This document shows, one piece after another, positions 15,452 to 34,797 of a DNA stretch of 41,414 nt; position 1 is the first letter of the stretch, and each line of letters starts with the position of its first letter. This stretch comes from a virus, in IMG/VR virus record IMGVR_UViG_3300021959_000107, positions 1 through 41,414 of that record. One strand, 5' to 3'. The position numbers were made by a program, and so were the translations under genes. Under the pieces are notes generated by a model. The model was not told the DNA's origin. It was given only the letters and a program-made list of their open reading frames with translations, and did not search any database.

Positions 15452-15652
15452 ATGGGAGTAAAACTCAAACCTAGTGTAAAAGAATATTTAAAAGATTCTA
15501 GAGGTAAAAGGATTAATCAATTTGTTTGGAAGCACTTTACTCCATCAGGTACTTCAACAGAAGAACTTAAAAAAATGTTCGCTACGAATACTTTCAGAAA
15601 GAAAAAAAACATTATAAAAAGAGAGCTGCTAAAACGAAATGAGACTATCTAA
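15452..15652 (+). CDS. Small basic protein, unknown
   Basis: Protein of 66 residues, strongly basic, with KEYLKDSRGKRINQFVWKHF in the first half and a Lys/Arg-rich C-terminus (TFRKKKNIIKRELLKRN). It is probably nucleic-acid binding by charge alone. It starts one base after the cupin-like gene and its 3' end overlaps the next gene by 14 bases. I do not recognise a family. Confidence 0.65.
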   Translation: MGVKLKPSVKEYLKDSRGKRINQFVWKHFTPSGTSTEELKKMFATNTFRKKKNIIKRELLKRNETI

Positions 15653-16228: not shown

Positions 16229-17152
16229 ATGGATTATACTTTCCTTTTAGGATCAATCGAAAATATATTGGGTAAAAGCCACAAGAGAGCAAGAGACAAT
16301 TATGCTTTCCACTGTCCTTTTTGCAATCACCGTAAACCTAAACTTGAAATTAATATGGCAACCAACGAAGAGGGTAAGAACCCTTGGGAATGTTGGGTGT
16401 GTCAAACTAGAGGTAGAACCATACGCTCTTTACTTTATCAGCTAAAAACACCAAAAGAGCAGGCTGCTACTGTACTTAAATATTTACCGAAAGGTAGTGA
16501 AATAGAGTATAAAGGACTATCTATAGTAGAGCTACCGAATGAATATCAATTACTGTATTCCGCTTCAAGTACATCAATAGTAGCTAACTTAGTAAAAAAG
16601 TACTTATATGAAAGAGGACTTACCGATAATGATTTTATTAAATATGGGATTGGATACGCAACTAATGGAGAGTATGGAGGAAGAGTTATTATCCCAAGTT
16701 ATTCTGAATCCAATCAACTCAACTTTTTTGTTGCAAGAACTTATGATGGCAACTACTTTAAGTACAAGAATCCTGAAGCCTCAAAAGATATAATTTTCTT
16801 CGAAAATTTAATAAACTGGAATGCACCCATTATATTATGTGAAGGTGTATTTGATGCTATGGCAATACGTAGAAACGCTATACCTATACTGGGAAAGAGC
16901 GTCTCTAACTCATTATATAAAAAGATTATAACTAGTAATGTATCTGACATTTACGTTGCGTTAGATACGGATGCTCGAGATAGAGCATTACAAATAGCCG
17001 AACAATTACTTAATCAAGGTAAAAGAGTATTTCTAGTTAACCTCCCCGATAAAGACCCTTCCGAAATGGGCTTTAAAGCTTTTACCGAATTAATTCAATC
17101 AGCAGAAGAATTAGACCTATCAGGTATAATGCTGCACAAACTTGACCTATGA
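16229..17152 (+). CDS. gp61: DNA primase, T4 gp61-like
   Basis: Primase that makes RNA primers for lagging-strand synthesis. Residues 28-58 form a zinc-binding motif: His28/Cys29, Cys32, Cys55 and Cys58 (HCPFC and CWVC). The TOPRIM core has Glu205 in LCEGVFDAMAIR, Asp246 and Asp248 in YVALDTDARDRA, and a late DKDPSEMG motif. At 307 residues it is close to T4 gp61 (about 340). It lies in a replication-type island, directly followed by a RecB-like nuclease whose start overlaps by 4 bases. The partner helicase gp41 is not in this window. The 55-base gap before it contains no obvious signal. Confidence 0.9.
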   Translation: MDYTFLLGSIENILGKSHKRARDNYAFHCPFCNHRKPKLEINMATNEEGKNPWECWVCQTRGRTIRSLLYQLKTPKEQAATVLKYLPKGSEIEYKGLSIVELPNEYQLLYSASSTSIVANLVKKYLYERGLTDNDFIKYGIGYATNGEYGGRVIIPSYSESNQLNFFVARTYDGNYFKYKNPEASKDIIFFENLINWNAPIILCEGVFDAMAIRRNAIPILGKSVSNSLYKKIITSNVSDIYVALDTDARDRALQIAEQLLNQGKRVFLVNLPDKDPSEMGFKAFTELIQSAEELDLSGIMLHKLDL

Positions 17153-17931
17153 TAAAGCAAGGTATGAACATTCTTGAACAGAATGAAAAAAACAGACTTG
17201 ATTTTAATCCACAATTAAAACAAATTAACTTTCTTGATAGGAGAGTTTATAAAAGATCAGAAGGAGTATACTATCCGTCCGTAACTACCATACTCCAGTA
17301 TATGCCCAAAAATAAGTTTTTCGAGTCTTGGCTCAAAGACGTTGGGCATAACGCTGATCTGATTATGAGAAGAGCAGGTAAAGAAGGAACACAGGTTCAT
17401 GAAGCTGCAGAAGCTTTAGTTAAAGGAGAAGAGGTATCTTGGATGGATGATTACGGAAATGCAAGATATTCTCAAATAGTATGGGAAATGATTCTTAAGT
17501 TTTATGAATTTTGGTCAACTTATAAACCAGAACTTATATCAACAGAAGAATTCGTTTGGTCGGATAAATATAAGTATGCCGGTACCGCTGACTTAGTAGT
17601 TAAAATGGACGGTGAAACTTGGTTACTTGATATAAAAACATCTAATAGTATACATAAGTCCTATGACTTACAGTTAGCTTCTTATGCTAAAGCTCTAGGG
17701 GAATCCAAAGGTATTGATATAGAAAGAACCGGAATTATATGGTTGAAAGCTCAATCTAGAGGCCCTTCTAAGAAAAAAGGAGTATACCAAGGTAAAGGGT
17801 GGAAAATACTAAACATAGATGATATAGATAAAAACTTTGAATTATTTCAGATGATTTATAAATTATACCAGTTGGAAAACCCTAATACTGAACCTATTTA
17901 TAATAGTTATCCAACATCTTTGAAACTATGA
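17149..17931 (+). CDS. PD-(D/E)XK (RecB/Cas4-type) nuclease
   Basis: Protein of 260 residues. The nuclease core has His84 in GTQVHEAAEAL, Asp148 in AGTADLVVKMD, Asp161 and Lys163 in LLDIKTS, and Gln175 with QLASYAKAL, in the order and spacing of the RecB/Cas4-type exonuclease family. Typical phage roles are recombination or DNA end processing next to replication genes. It starts four bases inside the primase gene (ATGA). An alternative ATG exists at 17164; the first is preferred because of the coupling overlap. No iron-sulfur Cys cluster is visible, which separates it from classical Cas4. Confidence 0.88.
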   Translation: MIKQGMNILEQNEKNRLDFNPQLKQINFLDRRVYKRSEGVYYPSVTTILQYMPKNKFFESWLKDVGHNADLIMRRAGKEGTQVHEAAEALVKGEEVSWMDDYGNARYSQIVWEMILKFYEFWSTYKPELISTEEFVWSDKYKYAGTADLVVKMDGETWLLDIKTSNSIHKSYDLQLASYAKALGESKGIDIERTGIIWLKAQSRGPSKKKGVYQGKGWKILNIDDIDKNFELFQMIYKLYQLENPNTEPIYNSYPTSLKL

Positions 17932-18572
17932 ATAAACTTGTAAAAATTTGTCTCTCTGCAGTTTTTTTCGTATCTTTATATAGTTGTGGAACTTACCAAA
18001 TAAGTACCAAAAACAGAGTAAAGATAGAAAAGATCTTAACTGTAACCTCTACTGGTGATACTTTAGCGGTTCCTTTGAGAGATTTTCAAAGATATAATTA
18101 TGATAGCTTTGATTTTAATTTTACAAGATTTAACTACGGACTCTACAATAACTACTGGAACATCTGGTCATACCCATACTACGGTTGGCCCAATAGAGGA
18201 TTCAATTGGAATTATAGGAACTGGTACGTTAATCCTCCTATTTATAATTATAGTCCTCCTAAAGTACAGCCTAAGATACACATCAAAGGAAGAAGAGGAA
18301 GTGAAATTTTAAACCTTAATAGAGGAAGAAATAATAATGAAACTATCAGAATTAATCCTAGAAGCAACGACCAAACCCAAAGCCGTAATAATGGCAGGAG
18401 GAGCTGGAGCAGGGAAAACCTATCTCCTAAATCAGTTGTCCCTAGACTCTCTAACCCAGTTCAATCCGGACAAATACGTCGAGGATCCAGACCACCCGTA
18501 CTACAACAACCTAGGAGCAGCCAGCCGCCAAGTCAACAAGGACGTAGAAGCGGCAGCGGACGAGAAAACTAG
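17928..18572 (+). CDS. Phage lipoprotein, Bacteroidota-type, with overprinted C-terminus
   Basis: Protein of 214 residues. The N-terminus MNKLVKICLSAVFFVSLYSC is a classical lipoprotein signal with a lipobox ending at Cys20 (L-Y-S-C), so the mature protein should be anchored in a host membrane. Residues about 57-110 are extremely rich in Trp, Tyr, Phe and Asn (NYWNIWSYPYYGWPNRGFNW), followed by GRRG and an Arg/Ser/Pro/Gln-rich disordered tail. Similar W/Y/N-rich lipoproteins occur in flavobacteria, which is my main host clue. The last 236 bases (79 codons) also encode the start of a kinase in another frame. The phage may use it at the cell surface, for example against superinfection; this is inference. 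Confidence 0.75.
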   Translation: MNKLVKICLSAVFFVSLYSCGTYQISTKNRVKIEKILTVTSTGDTLAVPLRDFQRYNYDSFDFNFTRFNYGLYNNYWNIWSYPYYGWPNRGFNWNYRNWYVNPPIYNYSPPKVQPKIHIKGRRGSEILNLNRGRNNNETIRINPRSNDQTQSRNNGRRSWSRENLSPKSVVPRLSNPVQSGQIRRGSRPPVLQQPRSSQPPSQQGRRSGSGREN

Positions 18573-19272
18573 TTTTGTTTGGGACACTACAGCATCTGGA
18601 GTTCAGTTTGATAAAAATCTAGATAAACTAATTAAAAACGGATATGATGTATATATGATAATGGTATATACTCATCCTATGATTTCTTATATTTCAAATT
18701 TTACCAGAGAAAGAAACATTCCTTCTGCATCTATTTTTAGTACCTGGAGAAATGCTTACCAAAAAATTGGTGACTTCAATAAAAAATTAAAAGGAAATTT
18801 TTCAATTTTTGTTAACACTAGAGGAGGAGAATACGATAAAGAGATAGAAGGATTTAATACTGCAGCAAAAAATGGTCCTGCAGGCATAAAAGACTACCTT
18901 CAAAATTATAACGAAAAAACAGGTTACGGTAAATCATCGTTTTTTAAGCCTGTAGAAATGTCTAAGCAGGAAGAAGAAGAGTTTCAAAAAGCTATCCAAG
19001 GTATAGATTACGATAAAGAAAATAGATCCGAAGATAAAGCAATGAAAAATGCTTTCTTGAAATCTTACAGAAAGATAGGAGCAGGTCCTGGAGATGATAA
19101 AATGAGAGATACTCTTAAAAAATACAGAGACGGTAAAGAAAAAAGAGATCAAGATAATGAAGCAGTCTTAGAGAGTATTGCTGAAATGCTATTTTCACCT
19201 GTCTTCCAAGAATTACTTAAGCACTCTACTCCTCAAGAGATAGATAGAGATGTACAAAACTTTTTAGCATGA
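18337..19272 (+). CDS. P-loop kinase (Zeta-toxin-like), with capsid-targeting-like N-terminus
   Basis: Protein of 311 residues. A short leader MKLSELILEATTK (L-I-L-E at 6-9) is followed by the strand AVIMAG and a Walker A motif GGAGAGKT at 21-28. NPDKYVEDPDHPYYNN and VWDTTAS (about 69-75) correspond to substrate-binding and Walker-B-like elements of Zeta-toxin/PNK-type kinases, and RERNIPSASIFSTWRNAYQK provides the lid arginines. The C-terminal 110 residues are charged and helical. The substrate is unknown: Zeta toxins phosphorylate UDP-GlcNAc, while other relatives act on nucleic acids. Its N-terminal part overlaps the lipoprotein gene in another frame; the leader and Walker A lie in the overlap, so the ATG at 18337 is well supported. 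Confidence 0.85.
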   Translation: MKLSELILEATTKPKAVIMAGGAGAGKTYLLNQLSLDSLTQFNPDKYVEDPDHPYYNNLGAASRQVNKDVEAAADEKTSFVWDTTASGVQFDKNLDKLIKNGYDVYMIMVYTHPMISYISNFTRERNIPSASIFSTWRNAYQKIGDFNKKLKGNFSIFVNTRGGEYDKEIEGFNTAAKNGPAGIKDYLQNYNEKTGYGKSSFFKPVEMSKQEEEEFQKAIQGIDYDKENRSEDKAMKNAFLKSYRKIGAGPGDDKMRDTLKKYRDGKEKRDQDNEAVLESIAEMLFSPVFQELLKHSTPQEIDRDVQNFLA

Positions 19273-20471
19273 TAGCATTATATCCAGGAGCATTTAAACC
19301 ACCACATAGAGGACACTTTGAAGTTGTTAAAAGGCTTTTAAATGGAACTCATAATGGTAAGCTATATAGTGCAGACACATACAAAGATGTAGGTACATCT
19401 GCATTAGCTGGTGATAAAGATAAAGTTAAACAAATAAATAAAGTATTAGTCTTTATAGGAGGAGGAGAAAGAAACGGAATATCAAAAAAGGAATCAAAAG
19501 CTATTTGGGATATTTATAAGAAATATCTTCCTGGAGTTGAAATAATGGACGGACAAAAAAATCCAATGTTTGCTTCGAAAGATTATGCTAAAGCAAATCC
19601 TGATCAAGAATTCTACGCTATTGCAGGAATACGAACAGAAGAAGATATACCAGATCTAAGGAGAATAACTACATATAAAAATACTCCTAACGTTGAGGGG
19701 TTAGTTATAGCAGGACCTGGAGAACAAAGAGCTACTAAATTTAGAGCAGCAATACTTTCAGGAAACTTAGATGTAGTAAAAGATTTTTTTCCTTCTGAGT
19801 TAAATAAGGATGAGATTTTAAAAATTTTAAACATGTTAAAACAATCTATCATTTCAGAAGCTATGGAGAATACAATAGAAAATTTATTCTCTAACTGGTT
19901 TACAGAGAACCTTAACGAAGGTTCATCTGGTGCTCCTGTTGCTCCACGCTCTGTAGTACGATCTGATGATAGAGCTAAATTAGTTACTCTCTATAATAGA
20001 ATAAGAAACCAAGTCGAAACCGATACTGTATCTGTAACTTTTCAAGACGATCATATTAGAGTAGGTTTGAAAAATAAAACAGATAACTCAGATTTTGATT
20101 TTACCCCGTATATGGGTTCTATCTTAGAATATATGATAGATGAAGGTTTGAATATTACCCCTTTACCAGAAGTAAAAATAAGAAAAGATGTTACTGAAGC
20201 TTCTGACTTTTTCGGACGTACTGCATATTACGATCCTTCTATAAATGAAATAGTACTATACACACAAGGTAGACACCCTAAAGATATTATGAGATCATTT
20301 GTACATGAAATGATACACCATATTCAAAATATAGAAGGAAGATTAGTTGATGTTAATACATCTAATACAAATGAAGATGAACATTTGCTAGAACTAGAAA
20401 AAGAAGCTTACCTAAGAGGTAATATTACTTTTAGAAACTGGGAAGATAAAATTAAAAATGAATATAAATAA
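19269..20471 (+). CDS. Nucleotidyltransferase-metallopeptidase fusion
   Basis: Protein of 400 residues with two different catalytic modules. Residues 1-190 form a HxGH nucleotidyltransferase: LYPGAFKPPHRGHFEVVKRL with His13 and His16, and GEQRATKFRAAILSGN near 151-165 in place of the ISSTxxR motif. This fold transfers NMP groups, for example in NMNAT or CTP-dependent enzymes. A linker with ISE-A (195-198) and LNE-G (215-218), both fitting the gp21 consensus, is followed by GSSGAPVAPRS. Residues about 226-400 contain SFVHEMIHHIQN with the zincin HExxH at 346-350 and a later Glu in LELEKEAYLRGN as candidate third ligand. It overlaps the kinase stop by 4 bases. The substrates are unknown. Confidence 0.82.
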   Translation: MIALYPGAFKPPHRGHFEVVKRLLNGTHNGKLYSADTYKDVGTSALAGDKDKVKQINKVLVFIGGGERNGISKKESKAIWDIYKKYLPGVEIMDGQKNPMFASKDYAKANPDQEFYAIAGIRTEEDIPDLRRITTYKNTPNVEGLVIAGPGEQRATKFRAAILSGNLDVVKDFFPSELNKDEILKILNMLKQSIISEAMENTIENLFSNWFTENLNEGSSGAPVAPRSVVRSDDRAKLVTLYNRIRNQVETDTVSVTFQDDHIRVGLKNKTDNSDFDFTPYMGSILEYMIDEGLNITPLPEVKIRKDVTEASDFFGRTAYYDPSINEIVLYTQGRHPKDIMRSFVHEMIHHIQNIEGRLVDVNTSNTNEDEHLLELEKEAYLRGNITFRNWEDKIKNEYK

Positions 20472-32648: not shown

Positions 32649-34217
32649 ATGAGAGCAATAACTGTAACAGAAAAGTATAGAGCCGTACAAGAAGGTACTA
32701 TGTCAAAAAAAGAATTTGTACGTCAAATGAGACAACAATATCCTATGTTTGTATCAAACTACGATGGATTTGACAGTACAGTTAGTATTCTAAAAACAAG
32801 AAACATGCTTTTCGAAGCTCCGCAAAAGGCATTCGAAAATGTAAAAGTATACGACGATAGACCTGCTTTAACTTATTCACTTGACACCTTGGATAGGGGT
32901 ATAAGAGCAGAGCTCAACGCTTCAGGTATTGAACTACCTCATTTAGGAGTCTCACCTGAAGATTATTTAAAAGCTGAGAAAAAAGCTAAAGATAATTTAG
33001 AAAAAGATCCTAATCACTATATTAACCTTCTAGCTAAAGATTCTTCTCATGTCGATAAAAACGATCAACCTAAAGAGGTAAAAAGAGGAGCTGCTGATAA
33101 AGATACTTTCAACGATCTTAAAAAAGCTACCTTAAAAGAAGGATATACAGAAGAGCAAATTAATACTGCTATCGAAAGATTAAAAGAAAAAAAAGAAGCC
33201 GGAAAGAAAGAACTTCCAAAATCAATCGCCGATAAAGAAAGAGATCAAATCGAGAAAGATGCTAAGAAAGCAAAAGGTATGATCAAAGAAGATCCTAAGG
33301 AAAACATTATAGCTGTAGCTAGAGAGATTAGAGCTAAATATGGCGAGATTCCTGGATTTAACGTACTATTAAAAGACTTCCTACAGACACATCAGCAAGA
33401 AATTAAAGTCGGTAAAGTAGGACCTGAAGACGCTATTGCTGAGTTTGATAACTATATTGATGCAAACTACGATAGACTAGACGAGAAAGAAGAAGAAGTA
33501 AACGAATATAGAGGATCAGGAGAAGATATTAAATCCATCATTAGAGATAAAGCTGCTGATTCAGGCTTTAGTGAACAAGAAGAAGCAATGGAGGTAATGG
33601 AATTTATTGGTCAAGAATATGAAATTGACTTTGAATTCGGAGCAGGACCTTCTAGAATGGCTGAAAAGAAAGGTAAAGATCACGACGGAGATGGAGACAT
33701 CGATGGAGATGATTATATGGCTGCTAAAGACAAAGCTATCAAAAAAGCTATGGGTAAACAAGAGCAGTTAAAAGAAGCTATAAAAAAGATTATTAAGAAG
33801 ACACTTAATGAAGATATGCTTAATGAAGCTGCTACTCAAGAATTAGCTCGTATTGCCGATGATTATGCAGGCTTTGAAGGAATGAAAAGCGCTATCTTAG
33901 ACCTTGAAAACATAGTAACAGATATTGAAAAGTACTATGATAATACTAGAAATAAAATCCAAAAGGTATATGATAGATTAGGTGAGATTAGAAATGAAGA
34001 TGGACTTAAGGTAGGAGGTTTCTTAGCACCAGCTATTGAATCAGCTTTCAATAAAGATCTTAGACCTGTAACAAAAGTAGGATTTACAAAAGGATTAGAT
34101 ACCCCTAAAGTAAAAACAATCTCAAGAGCAGAAATTGATGCAGCTAGAGCAGCAGGAGAGATCGAAGAAGAGCCTAAGCAAACAATGTTTACACCTGTTA
34201 ACGAAAACGAAAAATAA
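32649..34217 (+). CDS. Prohead-associated modular protein with EF-hand-like loop
   Basis: Protein of 522 residues, charged and helical. A 56-residue helical leader ends in LFE56-A, fitting the gp21 consensus. The middle is Lys/Glu-rich coiled coil (about 150-220). Residues 344-355 read DHDGDGDIDGDD, an almost perfect EF-hand/dockerin calcium loop with acidic residues at 344, 346, 348, 350, 352 and 355. LNE388-D and LNE393-A separate the C-terminal helical domain (AATQELARIADDYAGFEGMK). It ends one base before the protease gene. Position and sites suggest a scaffold or internal protein processed by gp21; this is inferred. An alternative start is Met18. Confidence 0.78.
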   Translation: MRAITVTEKYRAVQEGTMSKKEFVRQMRQQYPMFVSNYDGFDSTVSILKTRNMLFEAPQKAFENVKVYDDRPALTYSLDTLDRGIRAELNASGIELPHLGVSPEDYLKAEKKAKDNLEKDPNHYINLLAKDSSHVDKNDQPKEVKRGAADKDTFNDLKKATLKEGYTEEQINTAIERLKEKKEAGKKELPKSIADKERDQIEKDAKKAKGMIKEDPKENIIAVAREIRAKYGEIPGFNVLLKDFLQTHQQEIKVGKVGPEDAIAEFDNYIDANYDRLDEKEEEVNEYRGSGEDIKSIIRDKAADSGFSEQEEAMEVMEFIGQEYEIDFEFGAGPSRMAEKKGKDHDGDGDIDGDDYMAAKDKAIKKAMGKQEQLKEAIKKIIKKTLNEDMLNEAATQELARIADDYAGFEGMKSAILDLENIVTDIEKYYDNTRNKIQKVYDRLGEIRNEDGLKVGGFLAPAIESAFNKDLRPVTKVGFTKGLDTPKVKTISRAEIDAARAAGEIEEEPKQTMFTPVNENEK

Positions 34218-34218
34218 C

Positions 34219-34797
34219 ATGGCACAATTATTAGTAGACGTTACGCCATTTAGACCTACGATCAAAGAATCGAAAACCAGACCTGGTGTATTCGAGGTTG
34301 AAGGTGTGATGCAAAGAGCAACAGCTCAGAATCAAAATGGTCGTGTTTATTCAAAAGCTATTCTAGAAAGAGAAGCTAAAAAGTACATGCAAGAGTTTGT
34401 TGACAACGGCAATGCTTTTGGAGAATTAGACCATCCAGAATCACCAGTGGTATCTTTAAAGAACGCTTCTCATATTGTAAAAGAACTTTGGTGGAAAGGA
34501 AATGACCTAATGGGTAAAGTAGAACTACTAAATACACCTGCAGGTAACATTGTAAAAGAAATTATTAAGGCCGGGCATACTATCGGTATATCATCTAGAG
34601 GTACTGGATCAGTACAACAAACAAATGAGGGTACTTTAGAAGTTCAACCTGATTTTGAATTAGTATGTTGGGACTTTGTTTCTAATCCTTCAACACATGG
34701 GGCTTTTATGAACCCTATTTCATTAAATGAAGGAAAAGTAAAAGTGTCAAAATACGCTAATCTAGATAATATTATTAACGACATTTTAAGATCATAA
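34219..34797 (+). CDS. gp21: Prohead protease gp21
   Basis: Serine protease that matures the T4-type prohead by cutting after L/I-x-E in scaffold, capsid and internal proteins. From the ATG at 34219 it has 192 residues (T4 gp21, 212). A longer frame reaches 28 codons upstream into the previous gene and is not supported. Catalytic residues: His72 in GELDHPESP, Ser125 (or Ser126) in GISSRGTG, and Asp152 in CWDFVSNPSTHGAF. SLNE-G near residue 168-172 could be a self-cleavage site. The next gene starts after 2 bases, and gp22 and gp23 follow. Confidence 0.93.
   Translation: MAQLLVDVTPFRPTIKESKTRPGVFEVEGVMQRATAQNQNGRVYSKAILEREAKKYMQEFVDNGNAFGELDHPESPVVSLKNASHIVKELWWKGNDLMGKVELLNTPAGNIVKEIIKAGHTIGISSRGTGSVQQTNEGTLEVQPDFELVCWDFVSNPSTHGAFMNPISLNEGKVKVSKYANLDNIINDILRS

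Follow-up and report, generated by a model that had tools for sequence, protein, structure and literature searches.

A long same-strand overlap between a lipoprotein gene and a Zeta-toxin-like kinase gene in T4-like phages, with evidence that both frames are maintained

Overprinting as such is well known. Long overlaps on the same strand are commonly assessed in a single genome or a few, which leaves room for annotation error. Known same-strand phase 1 overprints share two features with the gene pair described here, namely the extension of the 3' end of the upstream gene into the downstream gene in another frame and a low-complexity, disorder-prone character of one of the two products. The present overlap differs from them in its length (about 236 nt), in covering a catalytic P-loop, in being kept at ~50% kinase identity and in having switched state several times. 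Among prokaryotic overlaps, lengths of 4 and 1 nt dominate and those of >60 nt have been modelled as selected against (PMC3887535); an overlap of the present length is rare among them. The genes of the two-component spanins Rz/Rz1 occur in embedded, overlapped and separated arrangements (PMC6139136), and there, too, a phage outer-membrane lipoprotein gene lies in another frame of its neighbour. In our case, however, the partner is a P-loop kinase rather than an inner-membrane i-spanin, and the lipoprotein is encoded upstream and is much longer. We considered an o-spanin reading of this lipoprotein, given its lipobox (Cys20, by inspection), and rejected it, as the overlapped gene encodes a P-loop kinase and not an i-spanin with its membrane segment near the N-terminus. 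We recognised no lysis genes next to the lipoprotein gene, and a limited literature search found no earlier description of the overlapping pair.

The window analysed is a whole virus record of 41,414 bases, identified as a T4-like phage by family matches of its terminase, portal, head protease, major capsid and baseplate proteins. The closest cultured relative by capsid protein is Flavobacterium phage immuto (NC_055915), with which the major capsid protein shares 72% identity, and the phage therefore probably infects a marine member of the Bacteroidota. Immuto has the same gene order (primase, exonuclease, NadR-type gene, deoxyribonucleotidase), but neither the kinase nor the lipoprotein was found in it; its gp089, which sits between the exonuclease and NadR in the place of the kinase, showed no resemblance on reading and was dismissed as a counterpart. 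Kinase and lipoprotein searches of annotated phages gave no match, and a genome scan returned a single distant partial match (27% identity), too remote to be of use. At 17149-20471 the window carries four genes in the same direction, encoding a PD-(D/E)XK nuclease, the lipoprotein, the P-loop kinase and a weakly nucleotidyltransferase-like protein (Table 1). Four-base ATGA overlaps join the nuclease to the lipoprotein gene and the kinase to the gene downstream.

Table 1. Features of the lipoprotein-kinase locus in the window
Feature	Coordinates	Strand	Basis
PD-(D/E)XK nuclease (exonuclease) gene	17149..17931	+	PDDEXK_1 and phrog_298 matches; stop overlaps lipoprotein start (ATGA)
Lipoprotein gene, 214 aa	17928..18572	+	Open reading frame; relatives at the same position
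Signal peptide and lipobox YSC, ending at Cys20	17928..17987	+	Aligned Cys invariant in 17 relatives; by inspection
Lipoprotein body, Tyr/Trp/Asn-rich, evolving fast	17988..18336	+	Alignment, composition
Dual-coding overlap, 236 bases; lipoprotein tail in kinase frame +2	18337..18572	+	Third-position G+C, stop counts, codon shuffles, composition test
Zeta-toxin-like / PNK-like P-loop kinase gene, 311 aa	18337..19272	+	Zeta_toxin 1.2e-13, PezT profile, fold matches
Kinase leader MKLSELILE, LxE type, possible capsid-targeting leader	18337..18363	+	Sequence; low model confidence for residues 1-11
Kinase Walker A motif GGAGAGKT, within the overlap	18397..18420	+	Conserved in two kinase alignments
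Downstream gene with nucleotidyltransferase-like start	19269..20471	+	Weak CTP_transf_like match; overlaps kinase stop (ATGA)

The kinase matches the Pfam Zeta_toxin family at 51.4 bits (cut-off 22.3; E 1.2e-13) and also the PezT profile, and the P-loop signature GxxxxGK[ST] is conserved in its alignment. The predicted structure, confident except for residues 1-11, retrieved zeta, PezT, PNK and PSTK at about 14-19% identity. The Zeta_toxin domain and the P-loop kinase fold are thus common to this protein and the Zeta toxin, PezT and polynucleotide-kinase-like kinases, while additional C-terminal helices and the LxE leader set it apart from the Zeta toxin family. No epsilon-type antitoxin was found beside the kinase, the neighbours being the nuclease, lipoprotein and nucleotidyltransferase-like genes. 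Leaders of the [L/I]xE type, e.g. MKLSKIILE and MKLIQLILE, occur within the first 16 residues on many genes of the window (at 15639, 15985, 18337, 22504, 34800, 35376, 39256, 40035 and others) and resemble the capsid-targeting leaders of T4, and a head maturation protease is matched at 34135. The first 10 residues of an internal protein are enough for targeting in T4 (PMC9026906), and kinase residues 1-11 may possibly act as a leader of this kind. For the lipoprotein, the structure model was of low confidence, and neither Pfam nor PHROGs gave any match to it or to seven relatives.

Both open reading frames exist as first reported and share their 236 bases in different frames, the tail being read in kinase frame +2 so that the wobble base of each kinase codon doubles as the first base of a tail codon. 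The reported jump in G+C was reproduced on recounting (~43% at 18420-18479 and ~58% at 18480-18569), and a 90-base profile peaks at 0.57 over the overlap as compared to roughly 0.25-0.40 around it. When the kinase protein was held fixed and its codons were redrawn from the remainder of the kinase genes, 11.3 ± 2.1 stops were expected over the first 231 nt of the window tail (about 8-12 in relatives) and none is observed. None of 2000 redraws was open for any of 38 kinases, and the tail frame of the overlapping loci was stop-free over the 231 nt tested, barring its own terminal stop in three loci with shorter overlaps. Even generic codons with GC3 = 0.45 left 5.3 stops over 198 nt, with a mean probability of an open frame of about 0.002 per locus. 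Judged by these redraws, the open tail frame lies far beyond chance.

To place the window among its relatives, we scanned viral contigs four times with the kinase or its alignments and twice with lipoprotein queries, which yielded, after duplicates and fragments had been dropped, 127 distinct kinases from viral metagenomes. In 99 of them the lipoprotein gene overlaps the kinase gene by 203-239 nt and in 28 it does not, counts that are not independent since the loci are related and recombining. The overlap is conserved down to about 50% kinase identity, and its length is bimodal, with values either ≤47 nt or within 203-239 nt (236 and 239 being the commonest). The single intermediate value, 116 for the locus L118, is the length of the open frame only, the lipoprotein there already ending at -8. 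In 19 of the 28 non-overlapping loci the lipoprotein stop lies near the kinase start; the other nine (L129, L169 and the seven-member L233 group) have no lipoprotein, the nuclease directly preceding the kinase. A further class (L285, L290, L292, L300-L302) encodes a related lipoprotein with different genes, and no adjacent kinase, as neighbours. The kinase genes have their ATG either at position 1 or at the codon before it, the case of L022 being less clear. A frameshift fusion, suggested by ATA or ATC at kinase position 1 in many relatives, was dropped in view of the ATG one codon upstream.

A comparison of the two classes supports the earlier proposal that both frames are maintained. In the third-codon-position check, kinase GC3 proved to be raised solely where the overlap exists: overlapping loci have 0.45 within the overlap and 0.19 beyond it, as against 0.18 and then 0.16 over the matching regions of non-overlapping ones, whose kinases stay AT-rich, in keeping with the claim that the change in composition comes with dual coding. 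The rise spans about codons 7-72 of the kinase and drops near the lipoprotein stop. Over the first 198 nt, the tail frame contains 0.00 stops in overlapping loci (99/99 open) as compared to a mean of 8.4 in non-overlapping ones, and the other same-strand frame is not open in either (9.4 and 7.7 stops per 198 nt, respectively). Early tail-frame stops in relatives, which the preliminary description had named as evidence against the overlap, do occur, but they belong to loci that have no lipoprotein or one that stops at the start of the kinase. These comparisons indicate that the third positions of the kinase carry the constraint of the tail, which causes the local rise in G+C.

The exact sequence of the tail, on the other hand, seems to be weakly constrained, composition being kept more than sequence, as close pairs diverge at third positions only modestly less within the overlap (ratio 0.87 versus 1.16 in non-overlapping pairs). 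Mean synonymous-codon identity is uninformative for distant pairs, since codon usage differs inside the overlap. The non-overlapping locus L007 and the overlapping locus L009 are 92% identical in protein over the region, yet their synonymous codons agree at 36% of positions there as compared to 81% downstream. A sliding comparison confined the divergence largely to the first half of the kinase gene; for this pair, slow drift therefore appears less likely than a recombination event in which a separate lipoprotein gene and the 5' end of a kinase gene arrived jointly.

The overprinted tail (~78 codons) is basic, free of Cys and rich in Arg, Ser, Gln, Gly and Pro. Relative to stop-free synonymous redraws made with downstream codon usage, the observed tails are depleted in Cys (0.0% vs 5.5% expected), aromatic residues (1.8% vs 11.0%) and Lys (2.0% vs 7.7%) and enriched in Pro (9.6% vs 2.9%) and Gln (12.2% vs 7.0%). 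With T as the first base, a tail codon specifies stops, Cys, Tyr, Phe and Trp among others, and with A often Lys, while C or G leads to Pro, Gln, Arg and Gly. The tails thus avoid Cys, aromatics and Lys more strongly than keeping the frame open demands, and this explains the rise in G+C. Redraws with the overlap's own usage partly retain the bias (Ser, Gln and Asn up; Lys, Ala, His and Cys down), and most of the differences shrink, as would follow if one and the same selection had shaped that usage.

Similar tails are encoded outside any overlap. Low-complexity tails rich in Ser, Arg, Asn and Gly are specified by separate DNA in the kinase-less loci and in the non-overlapping L007, L027 group, L120 and L176, with endings such as SSRGGVKNN and NSRGKN; they carry about +10 net charge per 75 aa and no Cys. 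The DNA of these tails has 28-29% G+C versus 47% for the overprinted ones, with Asn, Ser, Lys and Tyr in place of Arg, Ser, Gln, Gly and Pro as the prevailing residues. Both kinds of tail, overlapping and separate, thus end up basic, free of Cys and rich in Ser and Arg, and this convergence opens the purpose of the tail to direct testing.

Taken together, the comparisons make it very probable that the lipoprotein and kinase genes form a conserved same-strand overlapping pair with both frames kept by selection, the tail being written over the kinase leader, P-loop and first helices. A different account is that the tail frame is open merely as a by-product of a G+C-rich stretch, such as imported DNA or a codon-usage ramp, and that its translation is functionless read-through. 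G+C is indeed raised exactly at the overlap, and redraws with the overlap's own codon usage leave the frame open fairly commonly (P about 0.17, or about 17% of redraws), as that usage has already been shaped by the dual-coding constraint. Yet where the same kinase protein occurs with no lipoprotein overlapping it, the region is AT-rich and the tail frame holds about 8 stops, a matched comparison that by itself largely refutes this account; the other same-strand frame stays filled with stops, the tails avoid Cys, aromatics and Lys, and all 99 overlapping loci are open, so that we regard it as very improbable. Hardly more credible, and if anything less so, is an RNA or DNA element in the 5' region of the kinase gene (a structure, binding site or regulatory leader) imposing the synonymous constraint in place of a translated tail. 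Synonymous constraint by itself cannot separate RNA from protein, and folding is stronger within the overlap than at the start codon; such an element, however, would not purge stops from a single frame, nor would it disappear just where the lipoprotein ends before the kinase, and the folding energies of the overlap resemble those further downstream.

The overlap might also serve mainly for translational coupling or control of kinase dosage, with the tail residues mattering little. This would agree with the four-base ATGA overlaps joining the flanking genes and with the weak conservation of the exact tail sequence. The non-overlapping relatives, however, indicate that a short overlap suffices, and the residue avoidance together with the similar tails of kinase-less phages points to a role at the protein level, leaving coupling as the main purpose unlikely. 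It appears more doubtful still that the overlap locks the two genes together, such that a recombining phage could not exchange the lipoprotein without the kinase 5' end, the pair would move as a unit and the tail frame would set kinase output by coupling; if true, this would mean, e.g., an envelope-acting lipoprotein travelling with a Zeta-like kinase.

Under the favoured reading of a pair with both frames selected, the lipoprotein frame would be read through the kinase start and stop about 78 codons later in the kinase +2 frame. The kinase would initiate internally at its own ATG, in an AT-rich and weakly folded stretch of the shared mRNA (the mean folding energy of 40-nt windows is -1.2 kcal/mol around the start codon of the kinase, as compared to -3.2 to -6.4 kcal/mol from +60 on). 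Carried to the cell envelope by the lipoprotein, the tail would form a flexible extension with positive charge, which phages without the overlap would encode in separate DNA.

With respect to age, relatives that lack a lipoprotein have an unchanged kinase N-terminus, Walker A included, and several to many stops in the tail frame; the kinase frame is therefore the older user of the shared bases. This agrees with the original suggestion that the tail sequence is younger than the kinase sequence beneath it; low complexity as a mark of youth, which that suggestion had invoked, does not hold, as low-complexity tails are also encoded separately, outside the kinase, and they are present where the kinase is absent, a point on which a check had been proposed. 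The overprint has therefore replaced or extended an existing kind of tail. By these comparisons, the Ser/Arg-rich tail type is independent of overprinting, and the present tail sequence is written over an older kinase. In a kinase tree from which the overlap columns had been left out, without a fixed root and with both states in each of its deep halves, the overlap state changes at least 10 times, 8 of these changes being forced by strongly supported branches, which gives a minimum of 8-10 switches. Three loci (L118, L129, L197) combine intermediate GC3 (0.30-0.38) with several tail-frame stops, as expected of recently lost overlaps, and no half-grown overlap was found among the 127 kinase loci.

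The new element is a natural experiment in many replicates, in which a long overlap on one strand comes with unusually good controls supplied by its relatives. More than 100 related loci, which have the overlap, lack it or lack one of the two genes, offer matched controls for the cost of dual coding, which can be read from third-position bias, stop purging and residue avoidance. The locus is also a warning that gene callers forbidding long overlaps may truncate or drop such lipoproteins.

Several individual loci deserve mention. The window contains a second apparent overlap of 83 bases, between 32649-34217 and 34135-34797, where the open reading frame of the head protease starts with TTG; its real start is probably later. 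In L204 (2069-2736), an overlapping locus, the tail frame is still open and the lipoprotein frame is interrupted immediately upstream of the overlap, perhaps through a sequencing error, a recent frameshift or a dying gene. In L022 (2856-3236) a very short lipoprotein of 126 aa keeps the full overlap, as though most of the body had been deleted. Finally, upstream of the kinase in L143 and L145, the lipoprotein bodies vary in length and sequence between related kinases, which suggests that such bodies are exchanged.
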